NCBI GenBank assembly: GCA_001443495.1
Contig: LDXR01000001.1
Location: 1-64,000, forward strand
Origin: a candidate division NC10 bacterium CSP1-5
GTDB taxonomy: Bacteria > Methylomirabilota > Methylomirabilia > Methylomirabilales > CSP1-5
Length of the DNA: 64,000 bases
Direction of reading: 5' to 3'
This document shows, one piece after another, positions 1 through 12,724 of the stretch. Position 1 is the stretch's first letter; the number at the start of each line of letters is the position of its first letter. The position numbers and the translations under genes were made by a program. The notes under the pieces are model-generated. The model saw only the letters and a program-made list of their open reading frames with translations, was not told where the DNA came from and searched no databases.

Positions 1-37
1 CGAAGGCGGGTCGGCCAAAAACAAAGGTGGAACCGAA

Positions 38-70
38 AGCAGAAATCCCAGTCGGACCCCTATTTCTGCT
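38..70. repeat. Imperfect palindrome ahead of the cassette gene
   Basis: The arms AGCAGAAAT (38-46) and ATTTCTGCT (62-70) are perfect reverse complements separated by 15 bases. A further ATTTCTG copy follows at 71-77, just before the start codon at 86. It could be a structured leader or a trace of a short palindromic repeat; no -35/-10 pair is obvious in the 85 bases available. Confidence 0.45.
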
Positions 71-85
71 ATTTCTGACCCCCTC

Positions 86-922
86 ATGCAAATCGATCGT
101 GAGCGTGCGGCTCAATTAGGCCTCGATACCGTTCGCATTCTCCACCAGGGCCGCTATCAGACTGTTCCCGGCTCCACGGTGGACATTCGTGAAGCTCTCA
201 GCAAAGCGGTCAGCGCGACCATCTCCTATCCGCCCGAAGCACTAATTCCGACAGCCCAGCCGAGAGTATCACATACTGATATTCAAGTCAGAAACGAGAC
301 GACACTTGAAGCCGCTCAACGTTTAGTCACTGAGGGGTTTCCCGTAGCCGCACTGAATTTCGCGTCGGCCACTCACCCGGGCGGTGGCTTCCTCAACGGG
401 GCGCGGGCACAAGAAGAGTCCTTGGCGCGCTCCTCGGGTTTGTATGCGTGCCTTGTCAACAGTCCCATGTACGCTTTCCATCGCGCCCGACACGACCCCG
501 TGTACACCGACTACGTCATCTATTCTCCGGATGTGCCCGTCATTCGCACGGACGAGGGGACGTTGCTTAATAGTCCATATCCGTGTTCCTTTCTGACCTC
601 ACCGGCCGTAAACGCGAAAGCCTTACTGGAGCGTAGCCCTGAGCGGCAACCCGAAATCCGACCTGCTATGGAAAGCCGGATTCGCAAGGTTCTGTCGATA
701 GCGGCGTTGCACAAACACGACACGCTGATTCTGGGTGCGTGGGGTTGTGGCGTGTTTGGGAATGACGCGACTGAGATCGCCGAACTTTTCCATGAGGCGC
801 TGACGACTCGCTACAAGGGTGTCTTTGCTCAAATCGTATTCGCTATCACGGATTGGTCAGACAATCATCGGTTTATTGGCCCGTTTGAGCGGGTGTTCGG
901 CTACAATATGCCCGGCACGTGA
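86..922 (+). CDS. TIGR02452-type microbial poly(ADP-ribose) glycohydrolase (macrodomain-like)
   Basis: The 278-residue protein belongs to the bacterial PARG family that removes ADP-ribose chains or units from proteins or nucleic acids. The diagnostic loop is visible: GGG at residues 99-101 followed by QEE at 109-111 (GGG-X7-QEE), preceded by a strand reading AALNFAS, and later the conserved LGAWGCGVFGND segment and an FAITD strand. Length fits the single-domain family. It starts at an ATG with only a CT-rich upstream region and no good Shine-Dalgarno. It is one of very few plus-strand genes here, its third-codon positions are visibly less GC-rich than those of its neighbours, and an attC-like site begins 6 bases after its stop, all consistent with acquisition as an integron cassette. 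Role in defence or ADP-ribosylation repair is inference. Confidence 0.88.
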   Translation: MQIDRERAAQLGLDTVRILHQGRYQTVPGSTVDIREALSKAVSATISYPPEALIPTAQPRVSHTDIQVRNETTLEAAQRLVTEGFPVAALNFASATHPGGGFLNGARAQEESLARSSGLYACLVNSPMYAFHRARHDPVYTDYVIYSPDVPVIRTDEGTLLNSPYPCSFLTSPAVNAKALLERSPERQPEIRPAMESRIRKVLSIAALHKHDTLILGAWGCGVFGNDATEIAELFHEALTTRYKGVFAQIVFAITDWSDNHRFIGPFERVFGYNMPGT

Positions 923-928
923 GCCTGC

Positions 929-1020
929 GGCTAACACTGTAGGAGCCGACGCTTCGCCGCACGCGGCTCTGGCAGTTCACAGTCTCGACGCGGCTCGCGC
1001 GGCTGATGCTGCCGTTAGGC
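929..1020 (+). other. attC recombination site (integron cassette 3' end)
   Basis: The 92-bp element opens with GGCTAAC (929-935; consensus R'' is RYYYAAC, one mismatch) and closes with GTTAGGC (1014-1020; perfect R' GTTRRRY). Next to R'' sits GAGCCGACGCTTCGC, close to the L'' arm of classical attC sites, and next to R' sits GCGCGGCTGATGCTGCC, close to the L' arm. The outer and inner arms are imperfect inverted repeats in the correct order and spacing, and the length is within the known attC range. The site starts 6 bases downstream of the stop codon, as in cassettes. No integrase gene or second attC lies in the window. Bases 1021-1174 hold nothing I recognise. Confidence 0.75.
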
Positions 1021-1174
1021 GTCGATGAAGGAGCGTGCTCGGAGGCTATCGGAACAGGTGATCATGCCGCGGCGTGACTCCCAGCGCGCCGCCTCCAACT
1101 GGGTTGAACCGTGACGTGAGCAGGGGCCGCCTGGGCCGCCGGAGGAACGGGTGATGAGGCGAGGAGCGGGGAGG

Positions 1175-2410
1175 TCAAGTGCGGCGGAGGAGGCGGGTGG
1201 CGATGCGATGGCCGCTCCAGGCCGCCGCCGGGAGACCGCAGCCGAGGGGACTCGCTTGCGAGGTCAAGAACAGGTTTCGCGGTCGGAGCCACCGTGAAGC
1301 GAGGGGGAAGTCCGGCGCCGCTTGCCTGGGTGGAACCGGGCAGGTCTCGGCCCCTGCCCAGCCCGGGAAGGCCTCATCGAGGAGGCTCACCGGATCTCGA
1401 CGCGGGGCCCGGAGAACGCGGATCGCCACCGCCCGTTTTCGGGACGACCGTCCATCGGCATCCCCAACGACTCCCAAGGCAAGCTGCAGGAGACCCGGCG
1501 GAGCCTCACCCGACCCCTCGGCCTCGACTACAAGGACATTCCTCCCCATCTCCCCCGGGATCAACATCTCGTCCACGACAAGATGCAGGACCCGATCCTG
1601 TGGACCCGCATCCGGTTCCCATACCACATATCGAGAAGACACCACTTCCCCATCCGCCGTCGCGACCTCACGGATTGTATTCCATCTGACCGTGATTTCT
1701 CGCACCACCCCATCCCGGATCTCTCCCCCTAGCGCTTGGAAGCGACGGATGGGGCGCTCGATGAACGCCTTGGTTCCTTCCCGAGGGGCGAAGAAACCTT
1801 TCCGGGCGTGACCAAAGGCCATAGCGGCCATGGCCACGGTGGCCTGTGACGGGTCCACACCGAAGCAGGCCGCGGCCACCGCCTCGGCCATATCACAGAA
1901 AGGGGGGGTGATCCCGCGCTCCCGAAGAAAGGTCCGAAGGTGACGTTTGCCGTCGAGGCGGCTGCTACTCCAGCGCGCCATGGTCCAGAGCGGCGTCTCC
2001 ATCCGCGCCCAGATCACCTCGGACAGCTGACAGAGGGCCTCTGAGCAGATGAGAATGTCAGACCAGGAGCTTGAAAATTCCCGTCGAAGCTCCCGCTCCC
2101 AGTCGGGACCCGGGCCGTACAGTCCCACGCGGTGGCACGGCAGAACCACCTGGACCCCCGGTTGAAGCCGGACCACCGGGGGTTGCTCCTCTGTGGCCAG
2201 CAACGGATGGAGGAATCCCCCCTCTTCCAAACCCCAGAGCAGATCCGGGGATCGATCATGCTCGAACCGATCCTGGATCCGGTAGAAGGAGTCCTCGAGC
2301 GCCCCGGGGGTGAGCAGGACGACCCGCCAGCCACGCTGGGCCAGTGCCGTCCCACAGGTCACGCTACCCATTCCCGATCCGACGATGAGGCAGTCAATCT
2401 CCCGGTGCAT
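1175..2410 (-). CDS. FAD-dependent oxidoreductase of the phytoene-desaturase-like fold
   Basis: The 411-residue protein starts with a Rossmann dinucleotide-binding motif, IVGSGMGSVTCG, a few residues from the N-terminus, followed by a hydrophobic strand ending in the usual acidic-site region (VVLLTPG). Downstream it has the layout of carotenoid-desaturase/isomerase-like flavoproteins, including a segment RKGFFAPREGTKAF and a second dinucleotide-domain strand. Substrate is unknown. An upstream in-frame start adds 21 residues, but the ATG at 2410 places the FAD motif at the normal distance from the N-terminus. This start overlaps the end of der by 17 bp, suggesting translational coupling. C-terminus reads HRIATRLLRRT. 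Confidence 0.7.
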   Translation of the reverse strand: MHREIDCLIVGSGMGSVTCGTALAQRGWRVVLLTPGALEDSFYRIQDRFEHDRSPDLLWGLEEGGFLHPLLATEEQPPVVRLQPGVQVVLPCHRVGLYGPGPDWERELRREFSSSWSDILICSEALCQLSEVIWARMETPLWTMARWSSSRLDGKRHLRTFLRERGITPPFCDMAEAVAAACFGVDPSQATVAMAAMAFGHARKGFFAPREGTKAFIERPIRRFQALGGEIRDGVVREITVRWNTIREVATADGEVVSSRYVVWEPDAGPQDRVLHLVVDEMLIPGEMGRNVLVVEAEGSGEAPPGLLQLALGVVGDADGRSSRKRAVAIRVLRAPRRDPVSLLDEAFPGWAGAETCPVPPRQAAPDFPLASRWLRPRNLFLTSQASPLGCGLPAAAWSGHRIATRLLRRT

Positions 2411-3749
2411 GGGGGCTCTTCCGCCGGAAGGGGCGCCCTCTTCGCAAGGTGAGGCGGATCGGGTTGCCCTCAAACCCGTACGCCTTCCGAAGCCGATTCA
2501 CGAGGTACCGCACATACGACGGGGGAATGCCTTTGGGATCGTTGACGAAGAGGCCAAAGGTCGGTGGCCGGGAGGCGAGCTGGGTGGCAGACCAGATCGT
2601 GATCGGCCGCCCCTGCGCTGAGGAGGGAGGATGGGCGGCCACGGCCTCCCCGATGAAGCGATCAAGTTCGTCGGGTGGAATGCGCCGGTCCCGCTCTTTC
2701 AGCACGCGTTCCACCACGGGAAAGATCTTGAAGACCCGCTGCCCCGTCAGCGCCGAGACACAGACGACTGGAGCGTAGTCCAGATGCCCTAGCTCTTCAC
2801 GAATTCGGCGGAGATGCTCGTCAGCCGCCCTTGCCCGTTTTTCCACCAGGTCCCATTTGTTCACCACGAGGATCGAAGCACACCCCGCCTGCGTGGCGAT
2901 CCCGGCGATCCGCGCGTCCTGACGCACCACCCCGGTTACCGCATCGAGCAGGATAAGGGCCACATCAGAGCACTCCACGGCCTTGACGGCCCGGAGGATG
3001 CTGTAATACTCGACCCGATGGCTCATCCGGCTCTTGGAGCGAATCCCCGCCGTGTCCACCAACACATATCGCTGTCCTTGGTACGTAAAGGGAGTATCAA
3101 CGGCGTCTCGCGTCGTTCCGGGATCAGGGCTGACGATGACTCGGGGCTCTCCCAATATCCGGTTGACCAGGGAAGACTTCCCCACGTTGGGCCGTCCGAT
3201 CACGGCGATGGTTACGCCCTCAACGGCCGCAGGCGTCTCCTCCACCGGCGACACAAGGGCAAGCACGCCATCCAGGAGCTCTCCCACGCCCGTCCCGTGC
3301 TCGGCGGAGACCGGGAGGACCTCGGAAAACCCGAGCCGATAAAACTCAGCGGTCTCGGAGGCCCTCACCGCGGTATCCACCTTGTTGGCCACAAGCATGA
3401 CCGGTTTCTCCGCCTTCTTTCTGAGCAGAAGGGCAATCTCTTCATCCACAGGAGTCAGCCCCTCCCTGGCGTCTACCAGAAAGAGGATGAGGTCCGCCTC
3501 CTCCATGGCCAGTTGGGCCTGTTCAGCGACCTGCTGGGCGATGCGGGAAGGGGCCTTGGGTTCGAAGCCGCCGGTATCGACGAGGAGAAAGGATCGCCCC
3601 CGCCACTCGACGGTTCCGTAGTTGCGGTCCCGAGTAACCCCGGGAGTCGCCTCGACGATCGCACGCCGCCCCCCCACCATCCGGTTAAAGAGGGTGGACT
3701 TTCCCACGTTGGGGCGACCCACGATCGCTATGGTGGTCAGCGGTGCCAT
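2394..3749 (-). CDS. der: Ribosome-assembly GTPase Der (EngA)
   Basis: Der is a double GTPase that acts in 50S ribosomal subunit assembly. Two complete G domains are visible in the 451-residue product: P-loops GRPNVGKS at residues 11-18 and again at 185-192, DTGG and DTAG G3 motifs, and NKVD (122-125) and NKWD G4 motifs. The C-terminal KH-like domain ends in a basic tail (RRKSPHAPGD). A longer reading frame begins 42 codons upstream, but those residues lack family similarity and cross a hairpin; the ATG at 3749 gives the normal start MAPLTTIAIVG. It is followed by, and overlaps, the FAD oxidoreductase gene. Confidence 0.95.
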   Translation of the reverse strand: MAPLTTIAIVGRPNVGKSTLFNRMVGGRRAIVEATPGVTRDRNYGTVEWRGRSFLLVDTGGFEPKAPSRIAQQVAEQAQLAMEEADLILFLVDAREGLTPVDEEIALLLRKKAEKPVMLVANKVDTAVRASETAEFYRLGFSEVLPVSAEHGTGVGELLDGVLALVSPVEETPAAVEGVTIAVIGRPNVGKSSLVNRILGEPRVIVSPDPGTTRDAVDTPFTYQGQRYVLVDTAGIRSKSRMSHRVEYYSILRAVKAVECSDVALILLDAVTGVVRQDARIAGIATQAGCASILVVNKWDLVEKRARAADEHLRRIREELGHLDYAPVVCVSALTGQRVFKIFPVVERVLKERDRRIPPDELDRFIGEAVAAHPPSSAQGRPITIWSATQLASRPPTFGLFVNDPKGIPPSYVRYLVNRLRKAYGFEGNPIRLTLRRGRPFRRKSPHAPGD

Positions 3750-3762
3750 GCGCGCCTGCCGT

Positions 3763-3788
3763 GGCCCGTTCCTTCGGTGGAACGGGCC
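3763..3788. other. Perfect 10-bp stem-loop in the der leader
   Basis: GGCCCGTTCC (3763-3772) and GGAACGGGCC (3779-3788) are exact reverse complements around a six-base TTCGGT loop, 14 bases upstream of the der start. There is no T-run on either strand, so it is more likely an RNA structure in the leader than a terminator. The GTTCC/GGAAC core resembles part of the dispersed repeat found 24 bases further upstream. Confidence 0.5.
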
Positions 3789-3811
3789 TGCCCCTCGGTT
3801 CGGGGCGGTGA

Positions 3812-3827
3812 GTTGGAACGGCACTAG
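3812..3827 (-). repeat. Dispersed repeat copy 1 (CTAGTGCCGTTCCAAC)
   Basis: On the minus strand this intergenic site reads CTAGTGCCGTTCCAAC. It is identical to the copies at 17513-17528 and 41811-41826 and shares the 13-base core GTGCCGTTCCAAC with 17482-17497. It lies between pgsA1 and der, immediately downstream of a possible -10 box. Confidence 0.7.
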
Positions 3828-3854
3828 GATACTGCATCGCCACAGCGGACGCAA
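3826..3854 (-). promoter_or_regulatory. Possible sigma-70 promoter for der
   Basis: On the minus strand TTGCGT (3849-3854) is followed after 17 bases by TATCCT (3826-3831). The boxes match consensus only partly. Transcription would start inside the dispersed repeat and include the stem-loop at 3763-3788. Confidence 0.3.
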
Positions 3855-3934
3855 CGCAGCAGAAAGAAGCGTCACGGATTCGGAGGAATCACGGGATGAG
3901 AGTTGAAGGGATCCGGGGAGAGGGCGCGCCTCGA

Positions 3935-4483
3935 CTACGCGGGTGAGGTGTTTTGCAGCCGGGAGATCAGGTCGACGATCCCGCGGTAGATGTAGTCAAG
4001 CCCCGACAGGACCGTGAGGATCACCGCTGCCCAGACGAGCGCATCGAGGGGCGCACCCCCCTCGCTAACCGTCATGGCGGCCAGGACCGTGAGGATCTGC
4101 AGTCCCGTGGTGAGCTTTCCGATCGCTGAGGGCGGGTACCCCAAGCGGCCGCTGGCCGCGTAGAGAATACAGGAGCCCACCATCAAGAGCAGGTCCCTCC
4201 CTATGGCGATCACCGGAAGCCAAAAGGGGAGGCGTTCTACAACGCCCAACGTAAAGAGCGATGCGCCCAACAAAATCTTATCGGCGACGGGATCGAGCAT
4301 CCTCCCGAACTCGGTCCCCCCCCGCAGGGAGCGGGCCAAGAATCCGTCGAGCCCGTCGGTGATCCCGGCGACGAGGAAGACGAGGAACGCCCAGGAGAAA
4401 TCTTCTCGCAGGAGGAGCAGCACGATCACCGGCGTCAACACCAGGCGAAGAATGGTGAGCCCGTTGGGGAGATTGATGATCAC
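3935..4483 (-). CDS. pgsA: CDP-diacylglycerol-glycerol-3-phosphate 3-phosphatidyltransferase, copy 1
   Basis: The 182-residue integral membrane enzyme makes phosphatidylglycerol-phosphate, the first committed step toward phosphatidylglycerol and cardiolipin. The CDP-alcohol phosphotransferase signature is intact: a DG, AR, G, D, D series read as DGFLARS...GRMLDPVADK, with spacing as in D-G-X2-A-R-X8-G-X3-D-X3-D. Several hydrophobic segments follow. It is the last gene of the long operon and overlaps hflX by 4 bp (ATGA). A second gene of the same family and length lies at 12726-13274, so the two may differ in substrate or regulation. Confidence 0.9.
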   Translation of the reverse strand: MIINLPNGLTILRLVLTPVIVLLLLREDFSWAFLVFLVAGITDGLDGFLARSLRGGTEFGRMLDPVADKILLGASLFTLGVVERLPFWLPVIAIGRDLLLMVGSCILYAASGRLGYPPSAIGKLTTGLQILTVLAAMTVSEGGAPLDALVWAAVILTVLSGLDYIYRGIVDLISRLQNTSPA

Positions 4484-5619
4484 GGTCTACGCCTCTCGTC
4501 TCTCGCGACGGCCGTGGCGTCTTCGACGGTCTTCAGGGTCTCGGCCATGGCGTACTTGAGGTCATCGAGCCCCGCACCGGTCCGCGCCGAGACCACGACG
4601 GACCGTGGCCTACGGGCGAGAAAGGCAACCGCCTCTGGATGCGGAAGTTTGTCCACCTTGTTGTACACGTTGATCAGCGGCTTCGCGGCTGCCCCCAGTT
4701 CCCCCAGGACCGCCATCACCGCCTGAGACTGATTCTGCCAGTCTGGATGGGAGATATCGATCACGTGGAGGAGGAAATCCGATGCCCGGACTTCTTCCAA
4801 CGTCGCCTTGAACGCCGCCACCAGCTGATGAGGAAGCTTTCGGATGAATCCCACGGTATCGGACAGGAGGATCACGCGGCCGCCGGGCACAATCACCTTC
4901 CGTACGGTCGGGTCCAGCGTGGCAAAGAACTTATCGGCCACCGGGAGCGCCGCGTGGGTCAACGCATTGAGCAGGGACGACTTCCCCGCATTGGTGTACC
5001 CCACGAACGCTGCGGTCAGGAGGGCCTGTTTCTGCCGACCCCGACGCAAGAGCGCCCGGTGGCGTCGAACCTTCTCCAGCCCCTCTTCGATTTTGACGAT
5101 CCGGCGCCGAATCCGCCGTCGATCCACTTCCAGTTGGGTCTCGCCCGGGCCCCGGGTCCCAATGCCACCTCCCAGCTGGGACAGCTCGACACCATGGCCG
5201 GTGAGGCGCGGGAGCAGATACTTGAGCTGGGCCAGCTCGACCTGGAGCTTCCCTTCACGAGATCGGGCGCGCTGGGCGAAAATATCCAGAATGAGCCCGG
5301 TCCGGTCAACCACCTTTCGCCCGAGGACTCCTTCGAGATTTCGCTGCTGGGACCCGGTCAGGTCATCGTCAAAGATGACGAGGTCCACCCCCTCTTCGCA
5401 GATCGCCCTGACCTCTTCGGCCTTGCCCGGACCGATCAGGGTGCGGGGATTGGGCAGGGACCGCTCCTGGAGGACGCGAAAGGCCGGCGTAGCCCCTGCC
5501 GAGATCGCCAGTTGAGCCAGCTCCTCCAGGGAATCCTCGGCGTCCCACCGAGACTGGTGAGGCCGCCTGAGGCCGATGAGGACCGCCACTTCACGCTGTG
5601 GAGCGAAGACCGCATTCAC
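4480..5619 (-). CDS. hflX: Ribosome-splitting GTPase HflX
   Basis: HflX binds 50S subunits and can dissociate stalled or hibernating ribosomes. In the 379-residue protein the N-terminal HflX domain carries the GPGKAEE segment near residue 63 and the strongly conserved GGxGTRGPGETQLE stretch at about 150-163, followed by a basic coiled linker and a G domain with P-loop GYTNAGKS at 207-214, DTVGF G3 and NKVD G4. It overlaps tyrA by 4 bp upstream and pgsA by 4 bp downstream, so the three are translationally coupled. Confidence 0.95.
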   Translation of the reverse strand: MNAVFAPQREVAVLIGLRRPHQSRWDAEDSLEELAQLAISAGATPAFRVLQERSLPNPRTLIGPGKAEEVRAICEEGVDLVIFDDDLTGSQQRNLEGVLGRKVVDRTGLILDIFAQRARSREGKLQVELAQLKYLLPRLTGHGVELSQLGGGIGTRGPGETQLEVDRRRIRRRIVKIEEGLEKVRRHRALLRRGRQKQALLTAAFVGYTNAGKSSLLNALTHAALPVADKFFATLDPTVRKVIVPGGRVILLSDTVGFIRKLPHQLVAAFKATLEEVRASDFLLHVIDISHPDWQNQSQAVMAVLGELGAAAKPLINVYNKVDKLPHPEAVAFLARRPRSVVVSARTGAGLDDLKYAMAETLKTVEDATAVARDERRRP

Positions 5620-6479
5620 CGAAGTTGCTCGCCCGCCTCCTTGGCCCGCTGAAACTCCTGCACCAAACGCACCGTATCCTGCGTCCGAATCATCTCCGCA
5701 ATCCGCTCCAGCACCTGCCGGAATCGATTAATGGACTCGAGGACCTCACTTCGATTCCGGATCAGGATGTCACGCCACATGATCGGGTGCGACGCCGCAA
5801 TCCGGGTGAAGTCCCGAAGCCCACCGCCGCTGAACTGCAACAGTTCTTCCTCCCCGTCCCCACGGTTCAGCACGGTTCCAATGAGCGCGTAGGCGACGAC
5901 ATGCGGCAGATGGCTGACGAGGGCGAAGATCTGGTCGTGCCGGAAGGGATCCATCAGGACCACGTGGGATCCCACCCCCTCCCACAGGCGCATGACCTTC
6001 TTGAGGGCCTCCTCGGGGGTGCGGGACGACGGTGTGAGCACGCAGAGACTCTCGTGAAAGAGTCCGGCCGCGGCGGCCTCGGGCCCAGAGCGTTCGGTCC
6101 CGGCGATAGGGTGGGCAGGGACGTAGGCTCGGCCAGGAGGGATCTCTCTCTCCACCTCGTCGACGAGATCTCCCTTCACACTTCCCACGTCGGTCACGAT
6201 ACACCCGGGGGCGAGGTGGGGCGCAGTGGCTCGGACCACTTCCACGATGGCCCCGACGGGGACGGCCACCACCACGAGGTCGGCCCCCGCCACCCCGGTC
6301 GGCAGATCGCCAACCTCGTCCACCAGGCCCAGGGCAATCGCCTGATTCAGATGGATCTGATCTCTGTCCAGGCCGACCACGCGCGCGGCGAGCCGCCCCC
6401 GGCAGGCCCCAGCCAGGCTGCCGCCGATGAGCCCCACGCCGATCACCGCGATGCGCTGAAACAACAGTTCACGGTTCAT
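5616..6479 (-). CDS. tyrA: Prephenate dehydrogenase
   Basis: TyrA converts prephenate to 4-hydroxyphenylpyruvate for tyrosine synthesis. The NAD(P)-binding motif IGVGLIGGSLAG is near the N-terminus, and the catalytic-domain segment HPIAGTERSGPEAA is intact. Length (287 residues from the ATG at 6479) is that of a stand-alone dehydrogenase without a C-terminal ACT domain. A GTG five codons upstream is possible, but those codons lie inside a heptamer repeat array, so I prefer the ATG. It sits between aroF and hflX in an aromatic amino acid operon. Confidence 0.92.
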   Translation of the reverse strand: MNRELLFQRIAVIGVGLIGGSLAGACRGRLAARVVGLDRDQIHLNQAIALGLVDEVGDLPTGVAGADLVVVAVPVGAIVEVVRATAPHLAPGCIVTDVGSVKGDLVDEVEREIPPGRAYVPAHPIAGTERSGPEAAAAGLFHESLCVLTPSSRTPEEALKKVMRLWEGVGSHVVLMDPFRHDQIFALVSHLPHVVAYALIGTVLNRGDGEEELLQFSGGGLRDFTRIAASHPIMWRDILIRNRSEVLESINRFRQVLERIAEMIRTQDTVRLVQEFQRAKEAGEQLR

Positions 6480-6480
6480 C

Positions 6481-6508
6481 CAGCCACCAGCCACGAGTTA
6501 CTAGCCAC
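6481..6508 (-). repeat. Heptamer array, four units
   Basis: Four consecutive 7-mers read CAGCCAC, CAGCCAC, GAGTTAC, TAGCCAC on the plus strand, i.e. GTGGCTR-like units on the minus strand. The array fills the gap between the tyrA start and the aroF stop. Related GTGRYTR heptamers occur at 8722-8742, 36076-36104 and 44714-44741. Confidence 0.6.
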
Positions 6509-6510
6509 CC

Positions 6511-7524
6511 TCACAGGGTGCGTCCAACGATGGGCGCCAGGGCCCGCATCTGCTCCATCAGTGCGGCGAACCGGCCAGGGATCAGGGCCTGGGGTCCGTC
6601 GGATAAGGCCACCTCGGGTTGGGGATGGACCTCGACCATGACCCCGTCCGCCCCCACGGCAACGGCCGCCAGCGTCAGCGGGGCCACGAGATCCCATTTT
6701 CCGGCGGCGTGACTCGGATCGACGATGACCGGCAGGTGCGAGAGCTGCTTCAGCGACGGGACCGCCGAAAGGTCCAGCGTATTCCGGGTGTACTCTTCGA
6801 AGGTCCGGATGCCCCGCTCGCAGAGGACAATATTGTAGTTTCCCTCGGACATGATGTACTCGGCCGACATCAGAAGCTCCTTGATCGTCGAGCTCATCCC
6901 CCGCTTGAGGAGGACCGGCTTGCGGTGGATGCCCACCTCCTTGAGGAGACGGAAGTTCTGCATGTTCCTGGCACCGATCTGGACCATGTCGGCATACTTC
7001 ATCACAAGCTCTGCATCCCGAGGGTCCATCAACTCGCTGACGACCGGCAGCCCGGTCACCTCCCGCACCTCGGCCAGGTATCTCAACCCCTCCTCACCAA
7101 GGCCTTGAAACGAATACGGCGAGGTCCTCGGCTTAAAGGCCCCCCCTCGGAGCAGGGTGGCACCCGCCTTCTTGATCTTGGTCGCCGTATCAAGCAGCAT
7201 CTCGCGCCCTTCGACCGAGCATGGGCCGGCAATGACCGCGAGCCGCTCCCCGCCTATCGCTACACCATTGACCTCCACGACGCTTGGCTCGGCCTTGAAG
7301 TCTCGACTGGCGAGTTTGAAGGGCGTCAAAATGGGGAGGACCTTTTCAACGGCGGGCAGGGCCTCAAAAGGCACATTCCGAAGGACCCGCTCATCCCCGA
7401 TGGCCCCGATGATGGTCCGCTCCACCCCTCTGGAGACGTGGGGCTTGAGGCCATGCTGGGTAATTCGCTCCACCACCTGGTCGATGTCCGCCTGGGTGGC
7501 GGTAGAGCGCAAGACGATGATCAT
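6511..7524 (-). CDS. aroF: 3-deoxy-7-phosphoheptulonate (DAHP) synthase, type I-beta with N-terminal regulatory domain
   Basis: DAHP synthase condenses phosphoenolpyruvate and erythrose 4-phosphate, the entry to the shikimate pathway. The 337-residue protein has a ferredoxin-like/ACT-like N-terminal domain (about residues 1-70; [20 protein letters not shown]) and a KDSA-type barrel with [31 protein letters not shown] and [10 protein letters not shown] motifs. This architecture is that of the Thermotoga-type enzyme, which is feedback-inhibited by tyrosine or phenylalanine through the N-terminal domain. It overlaps hisC by 4 bp. Confidence 0.95.
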
Positions 7525-8705
7525 CTCTTGCTCCTCCCTTCAGTGGGACCCGCGGACCTCGCCGCCGCCGCCACCGTGCCGAGCACTTCGGCCAGGGCCT
7601 GGAGAGCCCGGCTATTTTCCTGGGGTGTTCCCACCGTCACGCGGATATACGTGGGCAGACCATACCCCTCCATGGATCGAACGATGACCCCGTTGCGCAG
7701 GAGGGCGTCCGCAACCGCCTTGCCTTCCACCCCGACATTGACCAGGATGAAGTTGGTGACGCTCGGGATGGTGACAAGTCCCGACGCGTCGAGGCGGGAC
7801 CGCATGGTTTTACGTCCGGCCTCGGTGATTCGAAGCGTCTCCTCGAGGTGGGCTGCATCGTCCAGGGCAGCCAACGCCGCTTTCTGGGCCAACGTGTTGA
7901 CGTTGAAGGGCTGCCGCACCCGGTTCAGAAGCTCCACCATTTCCGTGGGGCCGATGCCGTACCCGATCCGCAGTCCCGCGAGACCGTACGCCTTCGAAAA
8001 GGTCCTGAGGGCCAAAAGATAGCGTCCCTCCCGGACATATCGAAGGAAATCCGGCTGAAGATACCGGGGGATATACTCCCGATACGCCTCATCCACCACC
8101 AGGATGACATCGGGTGGAAGCGCCCGCACAAAATCGTCCAGGTCGGTGGGCGAGACGCACGTCCCGGTCGGATTATTGGGGTTGCCGAGAAAGACCAGCT
8201 TGGTTCGGGCGGTCACCGCCTTGAGCATCCCGCGAAGATCGTGCGTGAAATCCTTCAGAGAGACCTCTCGGATTTGGGCCCCCACGGCCTGGCAGACACT
8301 CCGATAGACGACAAAGGCCGGATGGCCCATCACCGCCTCATCCCCCGGTCCCAGGAAGGCTCGGGTGACGAGCTCCAACAGCTCGTTGCTCCCGTTGCCG
8401 AAACAGAGCTCCTCGGGTGTCACCCCGAGGCGCCGACTGAGCCCCTGGCGTAAGGCATAACAGCCGCCATCGGGGTACCGGTGCAGCCCTTGAAGCGCCT
8501 CTCGAATGGCCTGCAGCGCCAGCGGCGAGGGGCCCAGGGGATTCTCGTTGGAGGCGAGCTTGAGCACGTCATCGAGCCCGAGCTCCCGCTCTACCTCCTC
8601 CATCGGCCTTCCCGGGCTGTACGGGACCAGTCCCAGGATGTGAGGCTGCGCCAACTCTTTCAGCGTTTTCATCTGACGGCTCGTCGTCTGCCCTTCACGC
8701 GTCAT
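7521..8705 (-). CDS. hisC: Histidinol-phosphate/aromatic aminotransferase
   Basis: This fold-type I PLP enzyme of 394 residues (or 383 if it starts at the ATG at 8672) has the HisC hallmarks: LASNENPLGPS near residue 50, GNGSNELLELV, NPNNPTGT, DEAYREY, and the lysine in TFSKAYGLAGLRIGYG that binds the cofactor. HisC homologues placed in aromatic operons often transaminate phenylpyruvate and hydroxyphenylpyruvate as well as imidazole-acetol phosphate. Here it lies between pheA and aroF, so the last step of phenylalanine and tyrosine synthesis is a likely function. Confidence 0.9.
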   Translation of the reverse strand: MTREGQTTSRQMKTLKELAQPHILGLVPYSPGRPMEEVERELGLDDVLKLASNENPLGPSPLALQAIREALQGLHRYPDGGCYALRQGLSRRLGVTPEELCFGNGSNELLELVTRAFLGPGDEAVMGHPAFVVYRSVCQAVGAQIREVSLKDFTHDLRGMLKAVTARTKLVFLGNPNNPTGTCVSPTDLDDFVRALPPDVILVVDEAYREYIPRYLQPDFLRYVREGRYLLALRTFSKAYGLAGLRIGYGIGPTEMVELLNRVRQPFNVNTLAQKAALAALDDAAHLEETLRITEAGRKTMRSRLDASGLVTIPSVTNFILVNVGVEGKAVADALLRNGVIVRSMEGYGLPTYIRVTVGTPQENSRALQALAEVLGTVAAAARSAGPTEGRSKR

Positions 8706-8721
8706 CGTCGCCGTTCATGAG

Positions 8722-8756
8722 GTGCTTGGTGGCTAGTGGCCACCATTCACCCCTCA
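8722..8756. repeat. Heptamer array with inverted second half
   Basis: The units read GTGCTTG, GTGGCTA, GTGGCCA, then continue as CCATTCA and CCCCTCA, which look like the reverse-complement orientation. It occupies the short spacer between hisC and pheA. The units match the GTGRYTR family seen at three other intergenic sites. Confidence 0.5.
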
Positions 8757-8758
8757 CC

Positions 8759-9838
8759 CTAGCTCCTGGCCCGGAGCGGTTCCTTGGGGTAAGAGCCTAA
8801 GACCTTCAGAAAGATGCATTCGTCCTGGAGCCCCTCCAGGGCCGCCTTCACCGGTGCATCCTCGGCATGCCCCTCGAAATCCACATAGAAGATGTACTCC
8901 CAGACCCGGTAGCGGGAGGGTCGCGATTCGATCTTGGTCAGGTTGATCTGGTTCTTGGCGAAGGGCTCCAGCATCCGGTACAGCGCCCCCACCCGGTCCC
9001 GAATCGTGAAGAGGATCGAGGTCTTGTCCTGGCCGGTGACGGCGCACGGCGACTGCCCGATGATCAAGAATCGCGTGAAATTATACGGGCTGTCTTCAAT
9101 CCGGGACGCCACGACCTTGAGATCATAGAGCCGGCTCGCCAGCTCGGACGCGATGGCCGCGGCCGTCTCATCCTGGGCGGCAAGCTCGGCGGCCGCCGCC
9201 GTGGAGTGCACCTCGCGAAGCGCGACCCCCACCATGTTCGCCTCGAGCCACTTCCGGGATTGGGCGATGGCGTGAGGATGGGAGTAGATCGTCATGATCC
9301 GCCCCTTCTCTCCGAGCTTCGACAGGAGGTGATGAGCAACCTCCATAAGGATCTCACCGCAGATCTTCAGGTCCGAATCGACGAACATGTCGAGGGTGTG
9401 ACTCACCACGCCTTCGGTCGAGTTCTCGACCGGTACGACCCCGTAGTCCGCCTTCCCCTTCTCCACCTCGGTAAAGACCTCTCCGATACCCCGGAGCGGG
9501 ACGTATTCCGCCAGCAGGCCGAATCGCTTCATGCATGCCATGTGGGTGAAAGTGGCCTGGGGCCCGAGATAGCCCACCTTCAACGGCTGCTCGAGCGAGA
9601 GACAGGCCGAGAGGATTTCCCGGTAGACCGCCTTGATCCCCCTGTCCGGGAAGGGTCCCCGGCTCTCCCGCGTGAGCCGATCGATGATCTCTCCCTCCCG
9701 TTGCGGGGAATGGTAGGCGATGTTTCCCTTGGCCTTCTCCTCTCCCACGCGCACGACGACCTCGGCCCGGCGATTCAGGAGGTCCAGAATCTGGCTGTCG
9801 ATGGCATCAATCTGCCGTCGAAACTCCTCGATTCCCAT
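8759..9838 (-). CDS. pheA: Bifunctional chorismate mutase / prephenate dehydratase (P-protein)
   Basis: The protein (359 residues) carries an AroQ-type chorismate mutase domain at about 1-85 (EEFRRQIDAIDSQILDLLNRR), a prephenate dehydratase domain starting near residue 92 (KVGYLGPQATFTHMA) with the catalytic TRF motif in NFTRFLIIG, and a C-terminal ACT domain with the phenylalanine-binding ESRP motif. Together these make phenylpyruvate from chorismate with phenylalanine feedback. The ATG at 9838 gives the normal N-terminus MGIEEFRRQID; an upstream in-frame start would add 17 unlikely residues. Confidence 0.95.
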   Translation of the reverse strand: MGIEEFRRQIDAIDSQILDLLNRRAEVVVRVGEEKAKGNIAYHSPQREGEIIDRLTRESRGPFPDRGIKAVYREILSACLSLEQPLKVGYLGPQATFTHMACMKRFGLLAEYVPLRGIGEVFTEVEKGKADYGVVPVENSTEGVVSHTLDMFVDSDLKICGEILMEVAHHLLSKLGEKGRIMTIYSHPHAIAQSRKWLEANMVGVALREVHSTAAAAELAAQDETAAAIASELASRLYDLKVVASRIEDSPYNFTRFLIIGQSPCAVTGQDKTSILFTIRDRVGALYRMLEPFAKNQINLTKIESRPSRYRVWEYIFYVDFEGHAEDAPVKAALEGLQDECIFLKVLGSYPKEPLRARS

Positions 9839-9913
9839 CTTTGCTCTCTTCCGTCTCCCCGTCCACATCTCGATCTGAAGCCCGGCCATTATAGGGAGGA
9901 ATCCGAGGCGGCT

Positions 9914-10479
<566 letters not shown>

Positions 10480-10483
<4 letters not shown>

Positions 10484-11187
10484 GCCGCCGCCCCACCGAT
10501 CATAATCTCGCCGAACGGGACCCGTTGTCGGACCCGGACCGCTCCCTGCCGCAAGAGCTCCAGCAGCGCGAGAAAAGTCGCTATCACCAACGAGCGATCG
10601 ACCGTCGGAGGAAACAAAGCCTCAAAGGTCAGGGAGCCCTGGAGCGTCACCTGGTCGAGGATGGCGACCATCCGTTCTGCCGTCGTCACCGGTCGGGGCA
10701 CCAGCGTGAGCGCCCCTTGGTCGTCGACACGCCTCAGGACGTCCCGAAAGGCCGCGAGGAGATCCAAGAGACTGACCTCGAGCGTTCCTCCGCCGGGCGG
10801 GATGTCGAGAGGCATGGAGCGGAAGAAGAAGAGTCGCTGTCCATCCTCCCGGTCCGCCAACGTCTCGGCGGCAGCCCGGAAGCGCTCGTACTCCAGAAGC
10901 ATATCGACCAGGGGGGTCCGAGGATCCTCCTCGCCCGCCTCCCCATCGGCAGAGGGCTCGACCGGCAGCAACATCCTGGACTTGATGTACACCAACGTGG
11001 CCGCCATGACGAGGAACTCTCCGGCCACCTCGAGGTCGAGCTCGTGGAGCAGGGTGAGGACCTGGAAGTATTCATCGGTGATCCGCGCGATGGGAATATC
11101 GTAGATATCGATTTGGTTTCCGCGGATGAGATGCAGGAGTAGGTCTAACGGCCCCTCAAAGACCGGGAGCTTCACCTGGTAGGCCAT
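10480..11187 (-). CDS. scpA: Segregation and condensation protein A (kleisin)
   Basis: ScpA is the kleisin that bridges SMC heads. The 235-residue protein begins [21 protein letters not shown], the characteristic ScpA N-terminus, continues with IDIYDIPIARITDEY and a helix with YIKSRMLLP, and ends in a winged-helix domain. A frame reaching further upstream exists, but the ATG at 11187 is preceded by the strong Shine-Dalgarno GGAGGAGGAG and gives the expected length. It overlaps the ComEA-like gene by 16 bp and scpB by 4 bp. Confidence 0.95.
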
Positions 11188-11495
11188 GTCTCCTCCTCCA
11201 CAGTCAGATAGGGACGGATCTTTCGCAGGTGCGTCGAGCCGATCTCCGGGATGCGCTCGAGGTCCGAGAGCCGCCGAAAGTGACCGTGCTCTTCCCGAAA
11301 CCGGACAATCGCCTCTGCCATGGCAGGGTCCATCCCCGGTACGTTGGCCAGGCGCTCCGCATTGGCCCGGTTGGGATTCACGCGCCCCGACCCCGGGTCC
11401 ATCGGCACGAGATCCCGGACGGCGACGAGGACCAGGACGGATAAGAGGAGCAAGGCGAACGCGGCATCGGCAGGAGCGAAGACCGGCACCCTCAT
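11172..11495 (-). CDS. ComEA-like helix-hairpin-helix membrane protein
   Basis: The 107-residue protein has one N-terminal transmembrane segment ([15 protein letters not shown], about residues 11-25) followed by a double helix-hairpin-helix unit ([19 protein letters not shown] and [18 protein letters not shown]). That architecture matches short ComEA proteins that bind incoming DNA in the periplasm. The ATG at 11495 overlaps the lysC stop by 4 bp (ATGA), and the gene's end overlaps scpA, so it is translationally coupled on both sides. comEC lies elsewhere in the window at 48066-50510. Confidence 0.8.
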
Positions 11496-12724
11496 CGGCC
11501 CCCCGTCGACTGCGCCTCCAGCCGGAAGACACCGTGCAGCGCCCGGACCGCCAGTTCCGTGTACTTTTCCTCGATCACGCATGACACCTTGATCTCTGAT
11601 GTGCTGATCATCATGATGTTAATGTTCTCCGCAGCCAGGGCGGCAAACATCTTGGCAGCGACCCCGGAGTGGGTCCGCATACCGACCCCCACGGTCGAGA
11701 CCTTGGCGATCCGATCGTCCCCCAGGACCTGGTCCGCCCCGATCTCTTTCGCCAGCCCCTTGACGAGTTCCATCGCCTTGTGAAAATCGGTCCTCGGGAC
11801 GGTGAAGGAGATATCGGTGTGCCCGTCCTGGCTCATGTTCTGCACGATCATGTCCACCACGATCCCCGCCTCGGCCACCCTCCCGAAGAGCTTGGCCGCG
11901 ATCCCGGGGCGATCCACCACCCGGGTAATGGTGATCTTTGCCTCCTTCCGGTCATAGGCAATCCCCGAGACCATCACCTTTTCCATATCTGGATCCTCCT
12001 GCACCACCAAGGTCCCTCGGTTTTCGGAAAAGCTCGATCGCACGTGGACAGACACGTTGTAGTTCTTCGCATATTCGACGGCCCGCGCCTGGAGCACCCT
12101 GGTCCCCAGGCTGGCCATCTCGATCATCTCCTCGTACGAGATCTTGGGGAGCTTCCGAGCCGTGGGGACCAGACTGGGATCCGCGGTGTAGACGCCCTCC
12201 ACGTCCGTATAGATCTCGCACACGTCGGCCTTCAGGGCGGCGGCCAGCGCGACGGCGGTGAGGTCCGAGCCACCGCGACCGAGGGTCGTAACTTCCTCCT
12301 CCGCACTGACCCCTTGAAAGCCCGCCACAATGGCGATCTGCCCCTCCCGGAGCGCCTGCCGGATCCGCTCGACGTCGACATTGAGAATCCGGGCCTTCGT
12401 GTGCACGTTGTCGGTGAGAATCCTCACCTGGGTCCCGGTGAAAGAGCGGGCCTTGGCGCCACAGGCCTGAATGGCCAAGGAGAGGAGCCCGATCGCCACC
12501 TGTTCTCCGGTGGCCAGGATGACATCCAGCTCCCGCTCATTCGGGGACTCGGTGATCTCATGGGCGAGCTGGAGGAGCCGATCGGTCTCTCCAGCCATGG
12601 CGGAGACCACGACGACCACGTCATGCCCGGCCCTCTTCGCCTCGACGATCCGCCCGGCGACACGCTGGATTCGCCCCACGTCTCCCACCGAGGTCCCGCC
12701 GTATTTCTGGACGACGAGGGTCAC
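11492..12724 (-). CDS. lysC: Aspartate kinase
   Basis: LysC phosphorylates aspartate, the first step toward lysine, threonine, methionine and diaminopimelate. The 410-residue protein starts [12 protein letters not shown], has the catalytic-domain segments [30 protein letters not shown] and [14 protein letters not shown], and ends with two ACT domains (from about residue 265) that mediate feedback control. It begins at a GTG preceded by GGGGGGAG one base after the stop of pgsA copy 2. Confidence 0.95.

Follow-up and report, generated by a model that had tools for sequence, protein, structure and literature searches.

The window analysed here is a stretch of 64,000 nucleotides from the candidate division NC10 bacterium CSP1-5 (assembly GCA_001443495.1, contig LDXR01000001.1, positions 1 to 64,000), and its base 1 is also the first base of the contig (C1; 70,001 bases). 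The source genome (G000) comprises 2.77 Mb in 40 contigs and is 99.7% complete. Close to the contig edge lies a gene for a bacterial-type PARG, followed directly by an attC site and then by conserved chromosomal genes of the opposite strand (Table 1). Assignment of the protein to its family is secure: it matches PF10021 with E 7e-49 (166 bits, against a curated cut-off of 23.5) and the microbial PARG family TIGR02452 with E 7e-81. The eukaryotic-type PARG family, PF05028, is the wrong family for this gene, and a search with it is silent. The nearest solved structures are the bacterial PARGs of Thermomonospora curvata (3sig; E 4e-64) and Deinococcus radiodurans (5zda; E 2e-57), which are homologous to the window protein over its whole length and have the GGG-X7-QEE motif in common with it; this homology leaves no doubt about its fold. 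That motif is intact (GGGFLNGARAQEE) and fits the GGG-X6-8-QEE signature with its catalytic Glu; at the site at which chain 3sij has Ala, the window protein has Glu. By homology it would be an ADP-ribose hydrolase, and it differs from its two structural relatives in that its activity is a prediction and in its location at a probable cassette locus. The GC content of the gene is 56.4% (the mean of the 47 long ORFs in the window is 63.1%), the second lowest among them.

Table 1. Features at the contig edge, in window coordinates
Feature	Position	Strand	Evidence
5' flank to contig edge; no R' box, repeat-like sequence	1..85	+	sequence search
PARG gene, bacterial type (PF10021 / TIGR02452)	86..922	+	278 aa; GGG at residue 99, QEE at 109
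attC site, 92 bp, weak	929..1020	+	19.2 bits / 23.9 bits; chance maximum over about 1 Mb is ~18 bits
R'' box GGCTAAC, one mismatch to R'	929..935	+	sequence
inner L'' arm AGCCG-A-CGC, extrahelical A	944..952	+	arm pairing, covariance model alignment
inner L' arm GCG-CGGCT	997..1004	+	arm pairing, covariance model alignment
R' box GTTAGGC	1014..1020	+	sequence
conserved chromosomal flank: FAD-type oxidoreductase gene, then der	1160..2473	-	88-91% identical to G005

The arrangement is that of a single ORF with an attC in the same orientation, 6 bases separating the stop codon from R''. The R' box conforms perfectly to GTTRRRY, and a cassette would presumably be cut there as G^TT (box at 1014-1020). 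R'' deviates from RYYYAAC at position 2, so that 6 of 7 positions of R'' and R' pair. The inner L arm is in canonical register with its extrahelical A; the outer L arm lacks two bases and is mispaired, and this, together with the incomplete pairing of the R boxes, marks the site as weak or decayed. The predicted mean pairing probability of the R boxes on the bottom strand (0.35) ranks 17 from the bottom among 92 genuine sites, that is, in the lowest fifth. The site is likely to be decayed or inefficient. The first-pass annotation of this DNA had placed the ORF, the 6-base gap, both R boxes and the 92-bp site exactly where they are; its observation of a lower GC content and its naming of the PARG family were also correct, and its description of L arms like those of classical attC sites holds for the inner arm and fails for the outer. 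On the 5' side of the gene no cassette boundary can be seen: bases 1-85 contain neither a GTT nor an R' box or attI, and the contig starts at base 1; the boundary would lie outside the assembly.

The attC call was evaluated with covariance models built for this purpose from bacteria of the same class, rather than with a published attC model, so that their E-values are rough. Sites were found by arm pairing in DNA beside TIGR02249 integron integrases. (A strict R-box pattern, applied to seven genomes, is too narrow to find attC sites.) The first model, R1, consists of 28 aligned attC sites, excluding the window site and those of G005, another genome of the genus; covariation of its arms is strong (0.405, compared with 0.115 for shuffles; 92% of cells paired). 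The second, R2, consists of 110 matches, again without the window site. The site is the top match of the whole window with either model, at 19.2 bits (E 0.015) with R1 and 23.9 bits (E 0.0046) with R2, so that the covariance test suggested in the earlier annotation does not reject it. In unrelated DNA from the surroundings of PARG homologs (approximately 1 Mb in all), the maxima are 18.3 bits (R1) and 17.9 bits (R2). Referred to the whole genome, the R1 E-value becomes 0.52, which makes the call borderline on sequence alone. The chance of a match directly behind a stop codon and on the right strand is ~0.002 over the ORFs of the window, so a chance match at this place is unlikely. Free folding of the bottom strand is no better than that of shuffles (z 0.32), but attC sites are better judged by covariance model than by free folding. 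An Rfam search of window positions 1-12000 gave no match.

Comparison with genomes of the same genus supplies the context. G005 aligns with the window from base 1160 on, at 88-91% identity, and has nothing homologous before that base. The flank at 1160..2473 is thus outside the cassette and marks the edge of a variable region. At the same chromosomal spot G005 holds an array composed of an antibiotic-biosynthesis-monooxygenase-like gene, an attC (393-491), a pyridine nucleotide-disulphide oxidoreductase gene and another attC (1713-1772), followed by two small genes, a truncated attC and repeat-like sequence. Neither of the two complete sites contributed to R1; they reach 49.5 and 43.3 bits. 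(The last attC of G005, at L110 2905-3240, retains only its left half (GCCTAACGAGGCGGTGCACCTGACC), behind which comes repeat-like inverted sequence (GGGGTCAAATCTTGACAATTAACATTTT ... AAAATGTTAATTGTTAAGACGCGACCCC).) In G002, also of this genus, the flank aligns from window position 1275 on, with other genes beyond. Gene and cassette content at this one spot thus varies from species to species, and this variation is the strongest support for reading the window locus as a cassette.

These observations also bear on the alternative that the attC is a chance palindrome with accidental arms, and that the PARG gene arrived by some other route, for example with the repeat-like sequence that precedes it. 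The genome-wide E-value, the unremarkable free folding, the mispaired outer arm and the lack of an upstream R' box are all compatible with such an accident. It is nevertheless quite improbable: the site tops the window and exceeds every chance match in ~1 Mb, stands directly behind a stop codon in the right orientation, and occupies a spot that carries cassettes in G005. The observation of an attC is confirmed, with covariance scores that are above background but borderline by sequence, and with genomic context deciding the matter.

Five further attC sites, scoring 27-41 bits, are found elsewhere in the source genome, on contigs C13 (at both ends), C8, C2 and C4. Four of the five are near contig ends, as would follow from assembly breaks at arrays. 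One cassette, consisting of a DUF188 gene and its attC (C13 96208-97072, that is, 96.2-97.1 kb; L254 4208-5072), is 97.1% identical over 865 bases to a segment of contig C73 in G003, while the chromosome that flanks it is 83-87% alike to relatives. The disparity between cassette and flanks implies that cassettes move within the genus or have recently been exchanged between species. Just short of its end, behind a cupin gene, C13 also bears an R''-like CCCTAAC (97763-97769, at the end of L254), and the contig stops within a few bases after it, which suggests that the array continues into the assembly gap. That the array might lead across the gap to C1 or C2 is a guess.

The PARG gene itself is a stranger to its lineage. 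It is absent from all 98 relatives searched, which rules out a fixed chromosomal gene of the lineage, one of the outcomes that the first-pass annotation had set against its proposal. In a tree of 57 homologs the window PARG groups with a set of six, mostly Planctomycetota (support 98/88), and its nearest homologs are 62-63% identical. The gene has been acquired laterally. The earlier annotation advised a look for the same ORF and attC in other genomes; of 87 other homologous loci, none has an attC beside the PARG gene.

No integron integrase is seen in the source assembly, 99.7% complete as it is: the TIGR02249 profile gives no match above the XerC/XerD level, and the two tyrosine recombinases that are found, of 298 and 314 residues, have the XerC/XerD layout. 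Of 99 genomes in the class, 32 carry an integron integrase that exceeds the curated TIGR02249 cut-off, and G002 and G003, both of this genus, contain intI fragments. The window locus is for now best called a cassette locus without visible integrase, comparable to a CALIN (a cluster of attC sites without integrase). It may instead be the end of a complete integron, with the integrase and first cassettes in the unassembled gap. The contig ends of the genome that lie in or beside attC sites, the termination of C13 in CCCTAAC and the intI fragments of G002 and G003 would all fit such an arrangement, but with a genome this nearly complete and free of any integrase-grade match it is the less probable one. 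intI may have been lost, or it may lie unassembled. Designation of the locus as a chromosomal integron in the first-pass annotation is therefore apt for the cassette locus and not for the integrase, which is represented by fragments in the genus and by whole genes in the class.

In 25 intI-linked arrays of genomes of this class (L180-L215), all 76 attC sites counted are 3' of intI and in its orientation, with none on the 5' side. Treponema-type integrons likewise have intI in the same direction as their cassettes (PMC3607928), and the layout seen at 76/76 attC sites near intI here is the one they have in common; the differences are that this is another class of bacteria and that the window's own genome is without visible intI. 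A whole class with array layout of the Treponema type may merit a study.

Taken together, window positions 86-1020 are probably an integron gene cassette, composed of a bacterial PARG gene and its attC, on the margin of a chromosomal cassette locus beside the der genes. The reading, which supports the earlier annotation in part, is carried by the attC scores relative to background, the G005 array at the same spot, the other attC sites of the genome and the near-identity of the DUF188 cassette in two species; the absence of PARG from relatives, its low GC content, its Planctomycetota kinship, its intact motif and the presence of intI in a third of the class (32/99) add to this. Against it stand the weak site, the genome-wide E-value, the 85 upstream bases devoid of R' or attI, the missing intI and the lack of an attC at homologous PARG loci. 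The locus resembles the cassettes of sedentary chromosomal integrons and CALINs in having an attC immediately behind a gene and on its strand, an R' of the form GTTRRRY, an inner L arm with an extrahelical base, and cassettes that differ between sister species. It departs from them in the weak outer arm of its attC, in a 5' boundary and an integrase that are not seen, and in its cargo. Insertion of the cassette would have been the work of an integron integrase, recombining the folded bottom strand of the attC with another att site; the attC may by now have become weak or decayed.

What the cassette does for its host is a separate matter. The enzyme would hydrolyse ADP-ribose links on protein or nucleic acid, perhaps in an accessory stress or detoxification function, and the best reading is of an accessory ADP-ribose hydrolase that came in as a cassette. 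The first-pass annotation had proposed, as a possibility, an ADP-ribose-based immunity or counter-toxin gene; in such a reading PARG would strip off ADP-ribose that phage factors or toxins had added. Defence and toxin-antitoxin genes abound in cassettes from metagenomes (PMC7370490), PARG relatives are present in giant phages, and in a Gemmataceae genome (L024 3134-6482) an adenylosuccinate synthetase-like gene, an ADP-ribosylglycohydrolase gene and then a near relative of the window PARG follow one another in one direction, a trio that is possibly an ADP-ribose operon. But most near relatives look free-standing, no DarT is found in the source genome or in six genomes of the genus, PADLOC and PHROG searches give no match, and no partner or toxin gene adjoins it on the assembled side (the upstream DNA being missing). 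(A PARP search is uninformative, because its control is silent.) The proposal finds no support here, and a role in immunity or against toxins is rather unlikely. The more ambitious version, a mobile integron-borne ADP-ribose eraser that shields its host from toxins with ADP-ribosylating activity or from phage factors, and with it a place for counter-ADP-ribosylation genes among the integrons of an environmental lineage, is a long shot.

The PARG cassette is ordinary in kind and new as an example: no cassette with a PARG or macrodomain-type ADP-ribose hydrolase was found in a search covering part of the literature. With it, the cargo of cassettes comes to include a macrodomain-type ADP-ribose hydrolase and, if the enzyme is active, there is a case in which the spread of ADP-ribose erasure by cassettes can be tested. 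The work also exposes cassette arrays with intI orientation of the Treponema type throughout one environmental class.

Minor observations concern sequence at and away from the contig edge. The first 30 bases of the window recur, 90% identical, at positions 7769-7798 of contig C31 in the same genome. Derivation of the 85-base flank from the end of a REP-associated Y1 transposase gene is not confirmed, since the sole transposase of this kind found in the genome does not share it. On contig C17, an ADP-ribosylglycohydrolase gene (PF03747, E 3e-36; L109 2351-3154) adjoins that transposase gene.
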